This document shows positions 5,641-58,133 of a stretch of DNA of 64,000 bases, piece by piece. The stretch comes from Odiellus spinosus (taxonomy: Eukaryota; Arthropoda; Arachnida; Opiliones; Phalangiidae). Both the position numbers and the translations under genes were made by a program. The notes beneath the pieces were generated by a model, which saw only the letters and a program-made list of their open reading frames with translations, was not told the origin of the DNA and did no database searches. The DNA is taken from the NCBI GenBank assembly GCA_963920705.1, contig OY987227.1, positions 17,323,434 to 17,387,433 of the forward strand. Reading direction: 5' to 3'. The number at the start of each line of letters is the position of its first letter. Within the stretch, counting starts at the first letter, position 1.

Positions 5641-5932
5641 TAAGATTAGCGGCGTGGCTTTATTGCGAAATGGATGTAAATGTATAGTGAAATACAATTT
5701 TTATTTGGTCAAAACAAATGGGTAGGATATTGGGGTGAATCCACGATTATTATTGCAGGAAGTGACGACAAAGGGTATAGCCTATTAAGTATTTGAATTT
5801 GACTTCACTTCCTAGCCATGCTATACTATATTCTACGGGAGGTTGGGAAACTACGGCTATAGGAGTTGACGTCACTGTGGATATTTAATATATCGCTTCT
5901 AGTGGTAACGTGATTTGGTTAATCCGGGTCAA

Positions 5933-6115
5933 ACAACAAGTGTTTTTTATCGATTCCTTATCGTTTAAATAGGCCTGTCCACCAGTACAAAAAATTCAAA
6001 CAAATATCAAACTAGAAATAAATTTAAAACATGCCCGGAAAATAGGCTTAGCTAGATTCATGGAGATCTTGCATTCCCCTTATAAGGGCCATCGATCAAT
6101 GTCATATCACAGTTT
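5933..6115. mobile_element. truncated family A copy
   Basis: This is one half of a family A element: CAACAAGTG, then ATCGATTCCTTATCGTTTAAA, the GGCCTG(A)TCCACCAGT block and the inner AAAATAGGCTTAGCT...TTCATGGAGAT block. No matching right half follows, so the copy is truncated. Confidence 0.65.
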
Positions 6116-6692
6116 CTATAAGGCCAAATATAAAATAATTTTCTGTGAAACGAAAAACTTGTTTTTAACACCCGAAAAACAAATAAAAAAAATGGGCGGC
6201 CGCGTGTTTATAAGGAAGGGATAAACCAAGAGGTCACGTGATTAGAAGAACAAACTGCAGTGCCATCTAGAGAAGGGTTAAGGAGTATGAGATAGTTCGA
6301 TTATTTTATTGGCTAGATTATATAGTCTGCTAATTTTTCTAAAACTACGTAAACTAGACCTAGACGATATCTAAGACGCTAATATATTAAATAAATAATC
6401 TTAAAAAATTAAATTAAGGTTTCTTTTATCAACTTAAGATAAGTGTTAAAGGAGGTTCTGTTTGTTGTGTTAATAAATGCAAAAGTTTTACGCGAATACG
6501 TTGGGATTTGATAAAATAAAATTGATATTACCGAAATCGCCATAGAACTTATTACAGACCAGCTACATATTTTTTTTTTTTTTTCTAACTCAAAAATCAG
6601 TCTTTGCGCAAGACAAAAATCAATCAATCCTCATATATTTCCGGCAAACTAGACTGAGGCCATTAGAATACTTCAAAGGATTTGTTTTTCAG

Positions 6693-6750
6693 GTGTGGTT
6701 TAAATTTTGTCGCTATGAAAATTCAAGCCCGGAATCCGAACAGTCACATG
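6693..6750 (+). CDS. candidate internal coding exon, gene unknown
   Basis: A good acceptor (TTTGTTTTTCAG) precedes an open 58-bp stretch coding VWFKFCRYENSSPESEQSH plus one base, followed by GTATTG as a possible donor. The peptide is hydrophilic and protein-like, but I do not recognise it. It may belong with the similar pieces at 11.1, 15.4 and 19.0 kb, although the reading phases do not join directly, so other exons would be needed. It could be chance. Confidence 0.2.
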
Positions 6751-7403
6751 GTATTGTGATTGACGTCAAATCCTGCTTACCTAGCCTTTCCTCCCGGCCA
6801 AATCTAGACCTTAGTCAATATTCTATAGGTCTGTTTATTCCTGTTGTTCCTGCCCAATTGCATAGCTGTCTCCTACACTAGCTTTATTTTAGGGTTATAA
6901 CCCTAAGCACCAAAGAAACCGAATCTCTAACTTTATTTTTTTAAGAAAATAAAAAAAATAACCTCGATCGGTGTAGACCGGATAAAAAGTCTTCTCGAGA
7001 AAAGAAATTACAAAAACTCTTCACGTAAAAGTATTTTACTCCCTTTTTAGGAGAGTATTTTCAGTATTAGATCTTATCGAAAAAGACCCAGAAGTTAAAA
7101 GAGGTTTTATATTTCAAATATTTCACGTGTGCAACAGAGTCAAAACTATGTAGGAGCTGGGCGCGATGCTTATCGAATTGATGCTGTTATTTTTTTTTAT
7201 TATTGACAAAGGAAAGAAGAAACTGATTATTAGACATATCCATTATTTTATAAGACAATTTAAGAAAAGAAAACACGCTCGTCAAATTTTAAAGAAGTGG
7301 AAAGGTTTCGGTTTCATTTTTCTTAATGGAAAGGATCAAGATAAAAAATATTGGATTTCATAAGAATGACCTTTAAGGTCGCCTTTCAAAACGTAGCTGT
7401 GTT

Positions 7404-7813
7404 TAAAGCGAGAATGCAAAATAACAACCAGTGATTTTTAATGGATTCCTTATCATTTAAATAGGCCTAATCCAACAGTAAAAAAATTACAAACAAAACT
7501 TACAGGGAAAATAGGTTTAGCTGGATTCATGGAGATTACCTGAACTCCCAATATAAGGACTAGCGATCAATGACATTGATCGATTCCTCTTAAATGGGGA
7601 ATGCAGGATCTCCATGATCAATGTCATTGGTCATGTTCTTATACGGGAAGTTCCGGATATCTTCGTGAATCCAGCTAAGCCTATTTTGATGAAAAGTTTT
7701 AAATTTATTTCTAGTTTAATATTTGTTTGTAATTTTTTTTTTTTTTTTTTTCTAATGGAAGATTAGGACTATATTTAAACGATAAGGAATCACTTAAGAT
7801 GCATTCTCCCTTA
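7404..7813. mobile_element. family A foldback MITE, complete copy
   Basis: The left end carries GCGAGAATGCAAAATAACAA and CCTTATCATTTAAATAGGCC; the right end carries the inverse, ATTTAAACGATAAGGAATCAC, then GATGCATTCTCCCTTAA. The inner halves also pair (GGCTTAGCT/CTGGATTCATGGAGAT against ATCTTCGTGAATCCAGCTAAGCC), so nearly the whole element can fold on itself. A further family A end follows directly at about 7814-7880. There is no coding capacity. Confidence 0.8.
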
Positions 7814-7885
7814 AACAACAAGTGATTTTTAATCGATTTCTTATCGTTTAAATCAAAATAGGCTTAAGTGGATTCATGGAAATCA
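7814..7885. mobile_element. family A fragment abutting the complete copy
   Basis: AACAACAAGTGATTTTTAATC followed by GATTTCTTATCGTTTAAAT, then AAAATAGGCTTAAGTGGATTC, repeats the outer and inner blocks of family A but with the middle missing. It directly follows the right end of the copy at 7404-7813. Confidence 0.6.
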
Positions 7886-20429: not shown

Positions 20430-21041
20430 ATAGATTTTAAATGGTAAAACCAAACTAATATTTAAATCCTTCGGAATCGTTTTGAGCTCCAACTGTTCAC
20501 AACTTCACATGATCAGTGATCCTCATAAACCGATTTTTTATAGTTATAGGTTGAAGCAGAAGCCGATGAAACCCTCCTTTGAAGTCTACTACTCTAATGT
20601 TCCATATAGCGCGCCTCTCTGTATGGGTAAAATTCACGATTTTACGAGATAGGAGGGGTCCTACTTCATACCCCCCTATCTACGGAAAATTGGTAATTCT
20701 CTCTCTCCATAAACGACGACGTTTTTATGACGAACTCCAAGGCTGCTAGAGATATTCGTTGGATGAACTCCCGCTCCGAAAATATCTACCGTTAGGAGGC
20801 GTACGAATCGCGCTTTTTGAAACTAACCCATACAGAGAGGGGTAGACAAGACCCGGGAGTAATAGACTTCAAAGGAGGGTTTCATCGGCTTCTGGTTGAA
20901 GCCGCATCGGTTTGAATCTGGTTCCCGAAGCAGTTTCGAGAAAACGATTCAAATAGATTCAAGAAAAGTGCTTTCCCGTTCATCAGACTGCAGTGAAACA
21001 TTTTCAAATGGTTTGAATCGTCTCTAAGGCGTAGTATGAAC
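20430..21041 (-). mobile_element. family B copy, interrupted by a family C element
   Basis: The segment from about 20903 to 21041 (TCTGGTTCCCGAAGCAGTTT, then CTTTCCCGTTCATCAGACTG, ending near GGCGTAGTATGAAC) matches the right arm of the family B element at 2270-2400. The left portion before 20557 is more diverged. A 338-bp family C element is inserted between them with a target duplication, so family B is the older insertion. Confidence 0.6.
20557..20894. mobile_element. family C inverted-repeat element, copy 1, 7-bp TSD
   Basis: It starts CAGAAGCCGATGAAACCCTC and ends with the inverse, GAGGGTTTCATCGGCTTCTG. The arms pair over about 37 bp at the tip and again at CTCTCTGTATGGGT further in. 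It is flanked by the perfect 7-bp duplication GTTGAAG (20550-20556 and 20895-20901); a G before both copies also allows an 8-bp reading. It is exactly 338 bp, like the copy at 26.3 kb. No coding capacity beyond the fold. Confidence 0.85.
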
Positions 21042-26337: not shown

Positions 26338-26675
26338 CAGAAGCCGATGAAACCCTCCTTTGAAGTCTACTACTCTAATGTTCGATATAGCGCTCCTCTC
26401 TGTATGGGTAAAATTCCCAATTTTACGAGATCGGAGGGGGTCCTACTTCATCCCCCCTGTCTACGGAAAATTGGAAATTCTCTCTCTCCACAAACGACGA
26501 CGTTTTTTGGACGAACTCCAAGGCTGCTAGAGATATTCGCTCGACGAGCTCTCGCTCCGAAAACATCTACCGTTAGGAGGCGTACGAATCGCGCCTTTTC
26601 AGAATAACCCATACAGAGAGCGGTAGACAAGACCCGGGAGTAATAGACTTCAAAGGAGGGTTTCATCGTCTTCTG
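26338..26675. mobile_element. family C inverted-repeat element, copy 2, 7-bp TSD
   Basis: Again exactly 338 bp, starting CAGAAGCCGATGAAACCCTC and ending GAGGGTTTCATCGTCTTCTG, with the 7-bp duplication ATATTTG at 26331-26337 and 26676-26682. It is highly similar along its length to the copy at 20557-20894, which suggests fairly recent movement. The overlapping open frames at 26335-26607 and 26448-26759 read the two arms of the fold and are not genes. Confidence 0.87.
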
Positions 26676-32974: not shown

Positions 32975-33211
32975 CAGGGACGGAAATAAGAAATTTTTCT
33001 TATTGGACAAATGTCCAGTAACCACCCTTAAAAATTCAAAAGTTATCGGACATTTAACAAAATTACCGGACAATGCTACATTTCTTGTATTGAAAAGTAC
33101 TTTTTTTATCGGACATTTGTCCAGTGACCCCCTCTTAAAAATAAAAAGTTATCGGACATTTGGAAAATTTATCGGACAATGACCAGTGACTTGTGCTTAT
33201 TTCCGTCCCTG
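32975..33211. mobile_element. hAT-like MITE with 8-bp TSD
   Basis: Termini are CAGGGACGGAAATAAG and its inverse CTTATTTCCGTCCCTG, flanked by the perfect 8-bp duplication TTCCAGAC (32967-32974 and 33212-33219). A CAGGG start and an 8-bp duplication are typical of hAT transposons. The 237-bp body contains two diverged tandem copies of a block with GTCCAGTRACC and AAAGTTATCGGACATTT. No transposase is present. The open frames at 32708-33073 (-) and 32889-33182 (+) overlap it and are not genes. Confidence 0.87.
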
Positions 33212-46017: not shown

Positions 46018-46790
46018 AAAATAATAACTAAAGTGTGAAATAAAATTTGTAAATGATAAAGAGGCAAAAACGGTTTTTATATAAAAAAGTTGAGTGTTGT
46101 AGGCCCAGCGCTAAAAAATTTTAAAAATCTATTTCATGTAAGAAAGTGTATTATATTTTAAACCTATCTTGATATTACGCTTGCAAAAAAATAATCTACG
46201 AACCTTTTAGGGTCAAAGATGAACCCTTTTTAACTATCGTGTACCAAGGAGAAAGATTTGTACTATATAACAGATTTTGTAAGACTAAATATAACCCTGA
46301 ATGATAACGAGGCTTGATTATACACACCTTAATAGGAACATTTTAATTGTATAGTTTTGATCTGTGATACTTCAAAAAAATTGTACGCTTAAAGAGTGTG
46401 GTGCCAAAGATGATGCAAATAAAGTTTTTTATTTCCCTAATGCTGATTCGTAACTCAAAGAGACTCGACAGACCTGGTTTGAAAACTTCACTTAACAATG
46501 AATGTAATTTCATTCTGGTTTTCAAGTCACAAAAAATCTGCCCCTATAGATTGAGTCACTTTAAAAGGAGGAAAGAAAATTACGCTAATTTGAAACTACT
46601 CCTATAAAAATTCTATAGTCTATTCTATTCCACCTAGGGTTGGTACAGCCGATAAAATATAATGAAAACCCTAGTTTTTGCTTCCTGCAAACTTCAGGTT
46701 ATAAAATGGGATGTTTAAATTTTATAATTGATGATTTTAAATTAATAATTCTGTGCTCTTGTTCAAGAGGAAAGAATTAATAATTCTTTA
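46018..46790. other. convergent 3' flank of the LRR gene
   Basis: AATAAA at 46039-46044, 22 bp after the stop codon, is a plausible poly(A) signal. The remainder is AT-rich; the paired open frames at 46343-46607 are antisense shadows of each other. Confidence 0.45.
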
Positions 46791-47730
46791 GTTCAGTGAT
46801 GGTTTTAAACTTATGATATCAAATTTTCGAAAATAAATTGAACTTATGATGTTACACTTTGAAAATAAGTTATAAACTTATAACAAATGAGAAAAAAAAC
46901 TTCTGTAATTTCTTTGAAAATAACAAAAGTTGTAGACTTATGATATCACTTCTTTCGAAAAATATGTAATAAGCTTATTTCGAAAAGTTATAATCTTATG
47001 ATATCTTCTTTCGAAAAAGTTATAATCTTATGATATCTTTCGAAAAAGTTATACTCATGATATCAGAAATAGATGAACCGAAATTATCAACGAGAGCTTA
47101 GATTGGGAAATGCATTTTATTTGGAGTGAATGGGGAGGGTAAGCACTGGGGGAATGGGCTTCCTCGGCCTCAATGAAATACCGAGGAGGATCTTGGGAAA
47201 CTGATCGCCCCACGTAGCGACGGCTGCAAACCAAACCAGGTGGCGCATTCAACGTTTCTCGGCTAGGTGAAATTCCGCGGGGGAGGGGGCTACAACTGTC
47301 GTCTAAGAGAGGGGAAACGGAGAACTTGCCTGTGGCGTTAGAGGAATAGCTCGTTGATAATTTCGGTTCATCTATTTCTGATGATATCACTTCTTTCGAA
47401 AAAGTTATACTCATAATATCACTTCTTTCGAAAAAGTTATACTCATGATATCACTTCTTTCGAAAAAGTTAACTTTGTAACATCTGAATATAATTAAGCT
47501 ATAAACTGAAATCATTCACATCACATTCAAAAATAAGTTATAAGTATGTCATATCTTCGAAAATAAATCATAAGATTATGACGATCACATCTTTGAAGAT
47601 AAGATAAACTTCTGATGTCACACCATCGAAAATAACTTACGATGTCATCTTTAAAGAGAAGTTATAAGCTTATAAGGATGCTACATCTTACAAAATAACA
47701 TAAGCTTATGATGACGCAAGCTTATAATTA
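46791..47730. repeat. 32-bp satellite array, interrupted by an element
   Basis: The clearest unit is ACTTCTTTCGAAAAAGTTAT followed by ACTCATGATATC, 32 bp, with good copies on both sides of the element at 47064-47380 (about 46965-47063 and 47387-47475). Toward both ends the units decay into related TTATAAGCTTATGATATC and CGAAAATAAGTTATAA pieces. Roughly 0.6 kb of array remains once the insertion is removed. Confidence 0.85.
47064..47380. mobile_element. family D inverted-repeat element, 7-bp TSD, inside the satellite
   Basis: The 317-bp element has 31-bp perfect terminal repeats starting CAGAAATAGATGAACCGAAA and ending with the exact inverse. It is flanked by ATGATAT at 47057-47063 and 47381-47387. 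Removing the element and one duplication restores CTCATGATATCACTTC, the intact satellite unit, which proves the boundaries. The interior is GC-richer than its surroundings. The open frame at 47055-47414 (-) merely reads through it. Confidence 0.92.
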
Positions 47731-48061
47731 TTAATATTATAAATGGGTTCGAACTTCTTGGTCATGACGCACTGTTTCAAATGGATTGCAATGAAATAGG
47801 ATTGAAAATATTTTTTGTTTTATATTAAATTAATAAGATTACATACTTTTTGGTCAATTATACATAGTTTTTTTTTTTTTTTTAGATTAAAGATGTAAAA
47901 CTTCTCGTTAAAATAAGTATATTTAATGTATATCAAAAAGGATGGATTATATTAATTAGTTTTTAAAATAAATCACGAATTTTTAAAGCACCTAATTATA
48001 GAGAAGCTTTACATCTTTATATTATACTTACGTCACAACTCGGTCCCACAAACACTAACAT
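47731..48061. other. 3' flank of GMAP-210
   Basis: AT-rich with a poly(T) run at 47867-47883; no coding signal. It should hold the GMAP-210 3' untranslated region on the - strand. Confidence 0.4.
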
Positions 48062-51000
48062 TTATTTGAGAACTTCTTCGAGAAAAGTAGAGTTTTTATT
48101 ACTAGGTGCGCTTTCGCTGCTTATTATAGGCGTGAATGTAGGCAACGCAGTCGAAAGTGGCCTCATAAGAGGATGATCATTCGCGTTCGTAACCGGGCCA
48201 GTCAAACTTCCTTTCGGGGGAGAGAAAAAGTCTAATTTAACCCCCGCCTTCGATGTACTGGACAAAGGTTTCCTCGAAGACATAAGAGAAGAGTTGGTTG
48301 GAGTAGAGCTGGCCATTGTTTCCAAAGGCATACGAGCCGGAACATTTGGGTTTGACTCGTTCTTTAAAAATTCCACGAATAATGTTGAGAATGACTATTT
48401 AGGATTAAAAAAAAAAAAAAAGTTTATAATTATGATTTAGAAAATTAGAAGACATCGTTTGCTAAAAACGTATTTGGCCAATATTTTTCTTGTGACTAAA
48501 AATCAATTGGCTGACAATTTAAAACTCTCCCTACAAAACTTCAGTATGTTTAAAATCAAATATACTTGATTGGGACTGGAAAAAACAGGTGTGGAAGTTC
48601 GAGGCATTGGTGCTGGAGGTTGAGGAGGAGTAGCTGGAACAACCTTCCCAATGATGGAAGAAATCCAACCACTTCTACTAGCGGATGTCGATAAGTGACC
48701 TGGATTTAATTCTCGTCCAATTTTCACCCCAGCCTTCTCCATCTCTAGTTGATTGAAATCTAAGATCCTCGCTAATAACCTAACGACTTCTGGTTTTTGA
48801 CTGGTCGGTGAAGAAAAGTAGCCAAGAACCAAGCTCTTCATGATTTGTCTAAGGAATTATATTGGATTTTCAGTAAATATTCCTCGTACTAAGGGGGTCA
48901 TCGCTTAAGTTATAATTACTTGTCAACTTTTCCTTCAGTTGTTGATTCGAGTTGTTGAATTTCGTCATGGGATTTTTGTAATAGACGCTGTTTTTCCAAT
49001 ACTAAGTTTAAAATAAAACTGAAATTAGTGTTTACGGAACAAAATATCAAACTATAGAAGTATTAAATTACATTAATTAACAAAATTTAAAAATTTCATC
49101 AGGCAGAAAACAAGTTGCCAGCGGCTGAATATCACACAAGTACTGGTGACTCAAAAATAAACCAGTACCTGATGTAATACTCAGATACGAACAACCATGC
49201 AAAATCATAAATCTAATACAAGTTTATAACAATAAAATAAAAACGAAAAAACTTGGAACTGAAAATAATATTAAAAATTATCATGCTGTAACGTATAATT
49301 AATATTTAATAAAAATTAAAAATTCACAATCGGATATCATCTGGAATCGGCGATATAAAAATACTAGTTTGAAATCAAAAATTATCGAGTATCCTAAAAT
49401 ATTAGAAAAAAAAAAAAAAAAAAACTAATCTCATGCGTCAATGCTTCTACCGTTTCTCTATAATTAATTAAAAAAACCGAACCACAATGCAGGTGCAGGA
49501 TATCCCGTATGTAAGAAGAAAATGAATAATAACCATGTTTCAAGTGGTGCAACCGTGAACTGTGTTAGTACAATCTCGCCTGGCACTATGGGGATCTTTC
49601 TGATTTCTCCCACAGTTACCAAGTGAGATTAGACCAAACGACAGTCAGACAGCCAATGCTTTTCTCCAAGTATCCAACCATATAAGGAATCATTTTGCAG
49701 TACATATATGTAAAACCAACCACATTTTTAATAACCATCCACTAATCTTCTTAAATTTAAGTATAACGATGCAATTTTTAAAAAGTGCGTGGTAGAACGA
49801 ACTTATCCAAACCATAGCTTAAAGACATGCGAACGAATGAACAGTTGAGATATTTACCTTCGTTTCTTAGCTCGTTTATGAGCTGCTCTTTCCTATCAAG
49901 TTGTTCACTTAGCCTAGACGCGGCGTCAAGGGCTTCCACAGTTTCTTTAAGACGAGCTTCTCGCTCAGTGATTCGAGCCTTCAAGGCTTCGATGTCCTTT
50001 TCTCTCTGGCGTAATTTTTCTTGGGTTGCCTTTGAAGCTTCGATTAGTTCTCTTCTATGTTCTCCTTGGATACATTCGAGAGCGGATTGTAGATTCGTGA
50101 TGGCGGCTTTTAGTTGCTGGATTTGATCTTCCAAACGGGAACACTGATCCAAAGCTGAATCGCGTTGCCTCAATACTTGGCTGAGTTGTTGCTGAAGACT
50201 GTCCACTCTGAACTGAGACTCTGTACTAGCGTTGGCTATGGCGTTTGAAGAAAGACTCGCTCTGTCTTCGGCGCTGGCTAGTTTTATTCTTAAAGCTTTT
50301 TCCCTATCTTCAGCCGACATAATTTCTTGAGTATAATTATCCTGAATCTAAATAAAAGGCCGCTTAGGTTTTTAATAGTATTTAATTTAAATAATATTTA
50401 CCTCTAATAAATGATTTCGAAGCCTATCCAATTCACTATGAAGCTTATCATTTTGTTCCTGAATCTTTTTTTGCTGGAGTGAAAAAAAAGGAAAGATATT
50501 TAAGAATGTATATGCAATTCAATTCTATAAGCGATCAAATCTTACTTCTCTTTGCTGATTCTTATTTTCTTGCTGTTGCTGACTTAGAGCCAACAATGCC
50601 TGGTCTCTTTCTAGAGTAATGGCTCCCATTTTTTCTTCAAGGACCGAAAAATCTTGCAACAACTGAGCCGACGAACCAGATCGTCCGCTCTCGTTGCTTT
50701 TCGCATCTTTCTCTTGGACCAACTGAACCAAAGTCGCCATCTTCTCCTTCATGGAATCCTTCTCGAATTGAGACTGTTTCACCGTCATGGACAAACTCTT
50801 GTTTTCCTCTTGCAGAGCTTCGTTTTCCATCCTCAATCTTTCTAAATCGTCGTTGCTACTAGCCCCTTCTTCCACAGTTTCTTTCAGCTTCATCTCGGCT
50901 TCGGATAACTTGAAAGAAACTTCGTCTAACCGATGCTGTAGAGTTTTAATCGTCTCTTCCTTGCGAGACAAAATTAAACCAGTTTCTTCCAAGGAATGGT

Positions 51001-54000: not shown

Positions 54001-57000
54001 TTAATAATGGCAATGTTTTTAATAAATTAGTTTCTTCCTCTTTACGTCTTTCAACTTTCTAGTAAAAAAAAAAAAAAAAATATCTAACTTAAAATACTGG
54101 AAAATAGGTGTTAGATTCCTAAAGCACCAAAAAAATATATTGGTAATAAGAAAATTTATGCGCGGGACGAAACCAGAAACGTTTGTAATATAAACAACTC
54201 GAACATTCCAGGTCAAAATGGGGTCAAAAGTGAATATTTAAGTTTATAATTTACGGTAATTGGGATGATAATTTTTAAATAAAGAGGATCCGTTGAAAGG
54301 CGTTATTACTTCCTTAAACAATATATTATTGGGAAAAAAGGGTCCGCGGATAAAAAAAAACCCAATAAAATTAGAATCCAATAAATAAACCTCCGAAATT
54401 TCTCGAGTACAGACTAGAACATTTTATAATTAGTAATTTGATATAAAAAGTCGTAATATTCCTTAAAAGGGAGAATACGACCTAAAAAACATGTGATTAC
54501 AATCAAATATTAAAATATAAATAAATTTAAAACTTACCATCAAAATAGGCTTAGCTGGATTCATGGAGATATCTTTTAACTCGCCGTATAATGACTATCG
54601 ACCAATGGCATTGATCATGGAGATCCTGCATTCCCCATATAATAGCCATCGATCAATGTCATTGGTCGCTACTCCTTATATATGGGGAGTTCAGGTGATT
54701 TCCATGAATACAGCTAAGCCTATTTTCCTGGTAAGTTTTAAATTTATTTCTACTTTAATATTTGTTTTTAAAAAATTATTGTTAGATTAGGCCTATTTAA
54801 ACTATTTGGAATCGATAAAAAAATAACTTATTTTTAGGTTGCATTCTCCCTTTATGTAGTTACTGGAAAATTATAACACTACGATTTGTTTTAAAAAAAA
54901 TGAATATCTAGTGTATTTATACAGATATAGTTTGGATAGAAATATAATTATTCCAAGTAATATTTAGTTAAAAATAGGCAATTTTCCTGAACTGGAATCT
55001 CATGTTCTATATAAATCTAGTGAAGGTTGAAATATTTTGATTATCCCGAATTTACACTGCAATTCAAATCTAAACCAATTAGCTTCAGAGTTCAAAGGTA
55101 CAGTTTTCCTTTCAAATGTAATGTTTATTATTAAATTAGCATAATTTGAAACTAAAATCATAACGCGAATATTTTTGTTTGTTTGTTGAATTAAATGTTT
55201 TCAATATAAAAATAATAATTTATATATATTTGAATCGTCTAATCTCCCTGTTTACTGGTATTATTCAAAAGTTTTAAACTGTACGAAAAACAAGTTATAG
55301 GTATACTCTTCTAAATTTTAATATTTCATAAGGTATATACCGACTGGGAGGAGGTTGCGACGAATTTATTTACATTTATGCCTCGTCAACGCTGTACTGG
55401 TAAAAAACGTGTCGGCTTAATATTATAGGCCTCTCTTCGAAAAGTAATATACGCTCAAATATATACCCAACTCTCTTCAGCAGTCACGTAACACGATAGA
55501 AAAGAAAAGAAAAAAAAATATGGAAGGTATGGCGCATTAAATATGTTACTGTCAAGTCGGCTCTTTATTCCAAAGCACGTTCCTATAACGACCACCACCA
55601 AAGTCTCATTTGCCCTCTTTCAAAGTGGGTCAGAAACATAACATTCTTAGCTGTAGCTTCGTCTTCGTCTGTCTATTTAACATCGACATAACTCTTACAG
55701 AGTGTTAATTTTTTGTGTATAATCTTAAATGAATTACCGGTGTTAAAACTAAAACTAAAAAGGGGGTCAAAATCAAGTCTAGCCAATAAAGTAGCAAAAA
55801 TAAGCTTCGAACCAATCACCGGAGCGCCAAATTTAAAGCCGGGTTTTCACTGAGCATGGAAAAATCGGGCTAAAAAGGGAGAATGCAATAATAAGAGATT
55901 TTTTATCGATTCCTTATCGTTTAAATAGGCTTAATCCACCAGGAAAAAAAATTACAAACAAATATTGAATTAAAATAAATGGAGATTCTGAATTTCTTCG
56001 CGTTGAAAGGTCAGCGACTAATCGAATGTTGTTGGTAGTCTTATAGAGATCTCGCCTTAACGACTGGCCTTTGCTCATTGGTCGCTGACCCTTCAATGCG
56101 AATCTAACTAAGCCTATTTTCCGGTAAGTTTTAAATTTATTTCTAGTTTAATATTTGTTTGTAATTACTGGTGGATTAGGCTTATTTAAACGATAAGGAA
56201 TAGATAAAAAACCACGTGTTGTTCGGTTGCATTCTCTCTTATTTTAACATTCTACATTGATTTAAATTAACTTGTTATATAAGTCTATTATCCCTTAAAG
56301 TCAAAACTCACCTTCGGATAAGACCTTTTGGCCTACTTTTCAAGAAAATATCTTAGTGCGAACGTAGGTAATTATGTAAAGTCTAAATATCAATCGTATT
56401 TCATATCCTATCTCACCCCTCAACAAATATTTCGCTAAGCCTAAAAGGTAATATAAACTCAGGCGTCATAAACATTTCATCAGATATTTATGATTCAAAG
56501 TATTATGGCTAGGCATGCGAGAATTAAATGGTCCCTCTTCTCTCTCTTTCTTCTATAGCTTTTTTTATCAAATCTAGCGGTGTCATCTAGTCTTTTTTGG
56601 ATACTCCTAACCCTCCCTCTCTTATTACTTCTCCTATTTCCATAATTATCTAAACTCGTAAGAATCAGAACTGGAGATTCTTAAGCGGATAATATTTCAC
56701 GAAAAACTTCGTAAAGAAAAAGTAGTCATGACTATTTCCAATTCGCTTCGAATATAGTTCGGGGCTTTTAAAAGGTAGGCAATTCAAAAACGCTTCGAGT
56801 CTATTTAGAAAACAGACTTTCAACTTTGCTCCCATTTAACGTGAAAGAAAAATTTATTTTTATAAGCAATCGATGTAATAAAAAACCGTAACGGAAGAAC
56901 GTCTACGATTTACTGAAAAAAACGTTTAACACGCGTAGGAAATAGTCCCGTTCTCATTGAGAACAAATTTAAGGGAGAATGCAACCTAACAACAAGTGTT

Positions 57001-58133
57001 TTTTTTTATCGATTCCTTATCGTTTAAATAGGCCTAATCCAACAGTTTGAAAATTTACAAATTAAACTAGAAATAAATTTAGAACTTACAACCAAAATAG
57101 GCTTAGTTGGATTAATGGAGATATCCTGAACTCTCCATATAAGGACTCGCTTTTATGATCCTGGATTCCCCATATAAGAGCCATCGATCAATGTCATTGG
57201 TCGCTAGTTCGTATATGGGGAGTTCAGGTGATCTCCATGAATCCAGCTAAGCCGATTTTCCGGGTAAATTTTAAATTAATTTTAATATTTGTTTTTAATT
57301 TCTTTTACTCGTGGATTAGGCCTATTTAAACCACTTGTTTTTAGGTTGCATTCTCCATTTAAAGATTGGTATTCACCTGTAACCTTTCCGTTTGTAATTT
57401 CTCCAGTTGACGATTTAGTAGTTGAATTTGTTTCTCCTTTTCGCGTAATTGAGAAGTAAATTCTTCGTGCCTTTGCTGGTTGGCTGTTAACTCCGATTCC
57501 AATGTGGCCAGTCGATGACGTAAAGTTTGGTCATCGTCTTTGTCATTTCCTTCAACTGAAATAGCCGAAAGAAACCAAACAAAACAAATTTAAAATAAAT
57601 TGGATTTTTAAAATCTAAAATAATTTTCTCTGACGAAATTACCCCACTATTTCGCTTTTTTACGATGAAATTATTCGGTATACCAGGGTTCCCAAGTTTT
57701 CCCTGACCATTTCTAAACAATTTCCCAGATCAACATTTAATATTTTACATCAATCTACTCATATTCGCGAGATATTGGCAATGTACATTCTTCTTTGGGT
57801 GATTTGACACAGTCTACCAATCAGGGTCGATACTCGATAAGTTTGCTCAGAATATGAATAAATAATAAAAAATTTGGCGAATATTTTCAGCTTAAAAAAC
57901 TTATTTTCCTTTTATTACAGTTAAAAGGCAAACTTATCATTAATATTTCCTTAACCTGTATCGAAACTTTTTATTTCCCTGACCTTTTGGGTCAATTTTC
58001 AAATTCCCTGACTTTTCCAGGTTTTACAGGTCGTGTACGAACAGTGTCTTTTATTGGAACGTTTTCGCTAAGCTTTAGAATAATTCTACGTCATGAACCG
58101 AAAAAAATCAAACCAATATTACGCATATGCCTT

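Follow-up and report, generated by a model that had tools for sequence, protein, structure and literature searches.

How many bases are duplicated when element D inserts, and what type of enzyme would move it? These questions are raised by a 317-bp insertion in a 64,000-nucleotide stretch of the Odiellus spinosus genome (hereafter the window), where the element went into a single unit of a short array of 32-bp repeats, so that neighboring units still show the empty site. The element has perfect 31-bp terminal inverted repeats (TIRs) at its two ends, which read CAG..CTG, and its G+C content is 50%, compared with 35% for the window. At up to three mismatches, the TIR had only two matches in the window, with none expected from 100 shuffles. 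A 131-aa frame in the element had no Pfam match. Positions and related segments are collected in Table 1.

Element D is flanked on both sides by exact direct repeats of ATGATAT, and the array allows the site to be restored. A sequence-only reading of the window had claimed that deleting the 317 bp plus one ATGATAT regenerates the array unit perfectly, and that this proves a 7-bp duplication. Joining the flanks with one ATGATAT did rebuild a 32-bp unit, which aligned with the neighboring unit at 47413 at 31 of 32 positions; we note that 31/32 is the informative figure, as the comparison unit was itself derived from the restored site. The bases preceding the two repeats differ as had been described, with C on the left and G, the final base of the element, on the right, so the target-site duplication (TSD) here is 7 bp, not 8. 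The repeated stretch can also be read as nine bases (ATGATATCA), because the array unit and the element both continue with CA, and the boundary of the duplication is therefore set at 7 by the symmetric TIRs and by the other copies of the element. What the same reading called a satellite is only a short array, with about six recognizable units (46940–47056 and 47381–47476).

Table 1. Features at and around element D, with positions in the window.
Feature	Position	Strand	Basis
Array units left of the insertion, 25–27/32 matches to unit	46940..47056	+	
Left 7-bp TSD ATGATAT	47057..47063	.	sequence reading
Non-autonomous transposon (MITE), element D, 317 bp	47064..47380	+	TIRs, TSD, genome copies
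Left 31-bp TIR CAGAAATAGATGAACCGAAATTATCAACGAG	47064..47094	+	TIR search
Segment of ~160 bp in common with the ORF2-side end of L110, L112, L113, L114, L115 and L120 (87–94%)	47064..47223	+	
Segment of ~145 bp (D 173–317) in common with the opposite end of L110, L112, L113 and L114 (81–88%)	47236..47380	+	
Opposite end, L115 part: D 199–317, 90% identity			
Right 31-bp TIR, identical to left	47350..47380	-	TIR search
Right 7-bp TSD ATGATAT	47381..47387	.	sequence reading
Array right of the insertion: remainder of the interrupted unit followed by two more (31/32, 28/32)	47388..47476	+	

Copies of element D elsewhere in the genome showed the same duplication length. In the window's own assembly (443 Mb, 286 contigs), the TIR had 327 forward and 317 reverse matches at up to three mismatches, compared with 0 for the reversed control, which corresponds to approximately 320 copies. 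A similarity search with the element and its flanks returned 367 first-look candidates, of which the best 40 were scored, the window copy included; all were 317 bp long, identical to the query at 313–317 of 317 positions, and flanked by exact 7-bp TSDs. This set is biased, as it was chosen by similarity and the query held the ATGATAT flanks, and for that reason we took a second, positional set of 46 copies, made up of every TIR pair that was complete within the first 100 of 644 listed places. These copies lie on contigs C1 and C2 and have exact TIRs throughout, eight unpaired places were left out of the count, and seven of the copies had been examined earlier. Most were 317 bp (38 copies) or 316 bp (three copies) long, and the remainder measured 312, 305, 299, 803, and 909 bp. 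The TSD was an exact 7-bp repeat in 44 of the 46 and mismatched in two, and an 8-bp TSD was found in neither set, which bears out the length read at the window site. Element D had no match in plasmid records, and its TIR had none in viral or prokaryote contigs.

Element D is a miniature non-autonomous transposon (MITE): it is short, non-coding, homogeneous, and high in copy number, and its ends are common to longer elements. The family expanded in a very recent burst. Among the 44 near-full-length copies in the positional set (299–317 bp), 20 equal the family consensus, and divergence from the consensus was low (median 0.32%, mean 0.56%, maximum 3.3%, with gaps uncounted). The 20 do not include the window copy, which carries two private changes (0.63%). 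Recent movement had previously been suggested from the identical TIRs of the window copy; the movement is supported by the family divergence, but identical TIRs carry little information on age, and within the positional copies TIR identity is uninformative because exact-TIR sites were chosen. Two positional copies 0.87 Mb apart (L053 at C1:14.18 Mb and L054 at C1:15.04 Mb) have identical TSDs, and the next five bases outward also agree at both ends; the pair perhaps reflects a segmental duplication or a stretch duplicated in the assembly. Both were kept among the 46 copies used for TSD length, and one was dropped from the motif count because of the shared flanks.

Insertion sites of element D were dispersed and AT-rich, with a short palindromic motif. 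An initial motif derived from the TSDs of the 40 top-scored copies was set aside, since the query contained the ATGATAT flanks, and the analysis was redone on 43 of the 44 exact TSDs in the positional set. The palindromic pattern NTNNNAN (T at position 2 and A at position 6) was present in 31 of 43 TSDs, compared with 10.6% of 25,089 flanking 7-mers, and none of 20,000 background draws reached 31 (largest 15). Published target motifs are GTTNAAC for 1360 (PMC3276498) and, in the text of PMC4168063, GTANTAC or GTATTAC for Galileo. T2 and A6 are common to the element D motif, GTTNAAC, and GTANTAC, and a full GTANTAC or GTTNAAC was found at none of the 43 sites.

The window contains other repeats and non-coding features. 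A 338-bp MITE, the A/B family, is present in two copies (20557–20894 and 26338–26675) that agree in 315 of 339 aligned columns. Its TIRs are ~38 bp long, with ends CAGAAGCCGATGAAACC; the two insertions have 7-bp TSDs, GTTGAAG in one and ATATTTG in the other, and in our own reading the element contains a subterminal inverted repeat CTCTCTGTATGGGT. The A/B family resembles element D in its 7-bp TSD and in ends that share CAGAAnnnGATGAA, but internal matches between the two are short and chance-like. A first-look genome search gave 1,943 candidates for it, the 40 scored ones being 96%–100% identical to the query, and it is probably older and larger than the element D family; its TIR had no match in viral contigs. 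A 237-bp element at 32975–33211, which we take to be hAT-like, has 16-bp perfect TIRs CAGGGACGGAAATAAG, an 8-bp TSD TTCCAGAC, and an internal 106-bp tandem repeat. Precursors of the mir-12 and mir-216 families lie on the minus strand (49120–49189 and 49563–49639), mir-12 being an arthropod microRNA family, in keeping with an arthropod host, and adjoin frames that in our own reading resemble a long coiled-coil gene. A dispersed repeat family occurs in both orientations around TTTTTTATCGATTCCTTATCGTTTAAATAGGCCTAATCC at 5931–7883 and 54484–57361, with arms that face each other.

Longer relatives of element D share its ends and carry a coding-like core. The copies of 803 and 909 bp resemble element D over ~160 bp at one end and ~145 bp at the other, with the core between them. 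Four loci are of this ~800-bp kind (L110, L112, L113, and L114; L112 is the 803-bp copy and L110 a second 909-bp copy), and element D ends together with part of a frame that we call ORF2 were found in L110, L112–L115, and L120. In L120, on contig C1, the element D end is 94% identical over 160 bp with an exact TIR and runs into ORF2, with a stop interrupting the frame. The first piece of ORF2 had matches at 10 places in the genome, and the second piece, from L131, at 42. The frame has an AT-hook-like stretch and an LGGGCLGEI motif, and had no convincing Pfam match. The end of L131 (CAGAAATAGATGAAGC) differs from that of element D by one mismatch in 16, and its open frame starts 181 bp inside. 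Its ORF2 pieces are 47% and 58% identical in amino acids to L120, with 61% in the cross-family comparison, and identity of L131 to three other ORF2 loci (L132, L134, and L135) is low (27%–36%).

Several candidates for a master element with element D ends were considered and rejected. In the continuation of L120 (L133), every stretch over the next 5.3 kb differed from the element D TIR at 10 or more of 31 positions, and the interval held no clear transposase, with a single weak match of 29 residues (E = 0.007). A frame at the opposite end of these ~800-bp forms was examined as a transposase start, and its match to L134 and L135 was no better than to shuffles. L115 was considered as a THAP-bearing master, and its THAP domain was discounted because it lies inside a different, nested element, in our own reading with TTAA on both sides. 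The insert in L118/L116, examined as a 6-kb master, reads as a non-LTR retrotransposon (our own reading of the frames). The nested element in L115 (L115:1831–2879) is ~1 kb long, contains a THAP-domain frame (PF05485, 22.2 bits versus a cut-off of 23.9), and recurs widely, with over 130 of the 150 places scored reaching ≥95% identity; it may be Kolobok-like.

Gene order around ORF2 links the longer relatives to P-type transposases. Using PF21787, the RNase H domain of P-type transposases (curated cut-off 24.6 bits), we scored 150 places of 386 candidates in the genome, many with long open frames. Within this listed set, only five of the 42 ORF2 places were at most 8 kb from a PF21787 place; four of these pairs were convergent and one was divergent, and three of the four convergent pairs look like one family. 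In a shift control, convergent pairs had a mean of 0.27 and a maximum of three in 1,000 trials. L131 has a convergent PF21787 fragment downstream of ORF2 (E = 7e-5, 23.5 bits, just below the cut-off), and L132 has a convergent PF21787 transposase above the cut-off (E = 9e-14). Two further loci, chosen among the ORF2 places that lay more than 8 kb from any listed PF21787 place, also contained convergent transposases with long frames, of 801 aa in L134 (PF21787, 31.7 bits) and 980 aa in L135 (39.7 bits). Within this one genome, ORF2 with a convergent P-type transposase is seen in several families that have diverged from each other, represented by L131, L132, L134, and L135. Transposase residues invariant across the four loci include FD.V and CDGA motifs, and the L134 and L135 transposase frames had no THAP match at E ≤ 1. 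The 150 scored PF21787 places among 386 candidates also indicate a rich load of P-superfamily elements in the genome as a whole.

One of these relatives is a complete element. The L135 element spans 5,496 bp (C5:15718016–15723511), with ends CATAACTCTATAATACC that form a perfect 32-bp inverted repeat and read CATAAC..GTTATG (CA..TG type), and its TSD, GTCATAT, is 7 bp, not 8. We found no single copy with both the element D TIR and a P transposase, L120/L133 included, and we infer the link between PF21787 and element D via the ORF2-bearing relatives, not via a copy with the exact TIRs of element D.

The 7-bp repeat at the window site has to be weighed against a coincidence of the array, with element D placed between units by recombination or by a mechanism that makes no TSD. 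ATGATAT is not rare there, occurring at seven places in ~1 kb (46701 to 47760, both TSD copies counted), and such recurrence in units without the element is what the sequence-only reading had proposed as its own refutation. The recurrence is real, and the informative part is the phase of the two junctions together with the 7-bp overlap in other copies. As 44 of 46 positional copies are flanked by exact 7-bp overlaps of differing sequences, coincidence is refuted, and we assign this explanation practically no probability. For one site inside a repeat, the word "proves" was too strong, but the genome copies supply the missing test.

Membership in another superfamily could also account for some features of the element. 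A hAT-superfamily MITE, with an 8-bp TSD of which one base is invisible at this site, is suggested by the CAG start, which hobo MITE ends share (CAGAGAACTG), and by the presumed hAT-like element at 32975–33211 of the window, whose ends are CAGGGACGG and whose TSD is 8 bp long. However, an 8-bp TSD was seen in 0/46 positional and 0/40 top copies, whereas hobo has an 8-bp TSD in 1,196 of 1,198 insertions (PMC3276498), and ORF2 is tied to PF21787, which together make hAT membership very improbable. Another superfamily with TSDs of 6–7 bp, whether Dada, an unclassified group, or one that is Mutator/Foldback-like, would fit the length of the duplication, as Dada TSDs are 6–7 bp (PMC3706591), and we found no intact master with the exact TIRs of element D. 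However, the Dada families described in the text of that source are without TIRs and lie in small RNA genes, whereas the TIRs of element D are 31 bp long and its insertion sites are AT-rich and dispersed, and we consider this group of alternatives unlikely. KolobokP was dropped, as its source describes long direct terminal repeats and 3–5 bp TSDs (PMC9587614).

Element D is most likely a P-superfamily MITE of the 7-bp-TSD type, which includes 1360/Hoppel and Galileo, and was likely moved in trans by a putative P-type transposase. Within the superfamily, the TSD is 7 bp in 274 of 279 insertions of 1360 and 8 bp in 1,207 of 1,226 insertions of the P element (PMC3276498). The Drosophila element 1360/Hoppel/ProtoP resembles element D in its 7-bp TSD, its TIRs, and the T2/A6 palindromic motif, and the source texts mention for 1360 a P-like transposase alone. 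Galileo, also from Drosophila, similarly has a 7-bp TSD and abundant non-autonomous copies, but differs in its long TIRs, which in some copies exceed 1 kb compared with 31 bp in element D, and in the full GTANTAC motif. The P element shares 31-bp TIRs and CA..TG ends with element D, and the P-MITEs of Anopheles are likewise short forms in which the ends of P masters are retained (PMC1562414), but both have 8-bp TSDs.

Movement of element D could proceed as in known P systems, with a different spacing of the joined ends. A longer element whose ends match those of element D would provide a P-superfamily transposase in trans. The MITE form itself resembles that of the Anopheles P-MITEs, which consist of P-master ends around other DNA (PMC1562414). 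After binding the CAGAAATAG..CTATTTCTG ends, the putative enzyme would attach them to opposite strands of a palindromic, AT-rich NTNNNAN target with an offset of 7 bp, and host repair of the two 7-base gaps would then yield the 7-bp duplication. P transposase works by such end joining and gap repair, with 8 bp (PMC7776569). We infer that the transposase moving element D is P-type from its relatives, because ORF2 in these is convergent to PF21787 and the complete relative combines CA..TG ends with a 7-bp TSD.

The master lineage could be a two-gene P branch, in which a P-type transposase is accompanied by a convergent ORF2 accessory factor that would act in transposition or in escape from silencing, with CA..TG ends and a 7-bp TSD, and of which element D would be a recent product. 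We propose this tentatively and regard it as a good possibility that falls somewhat short of probable. The two-gene architecture of this lineage may be new. In the literature searched, which did not include Repbase, we found nothing like two-gene P elements, which is not proof of their absence, and nothing on point about hemipteran P MITEs that duplicate 7 bp.

These results bear on how P-type transposases cut their targets and on what P elements carry. With ~320 copies, many of them near-identical, the element D family allows TSD length to be read unambiguously and a target motif to be derived for a 7-bp P-type element. The spacing of the cut made by P-type transposases, 7 versus 8 bp, differs between branches of the superfamily. 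If ORF2 does partner the transposase, the P elements of this host carry an accessory protein that can be tested.
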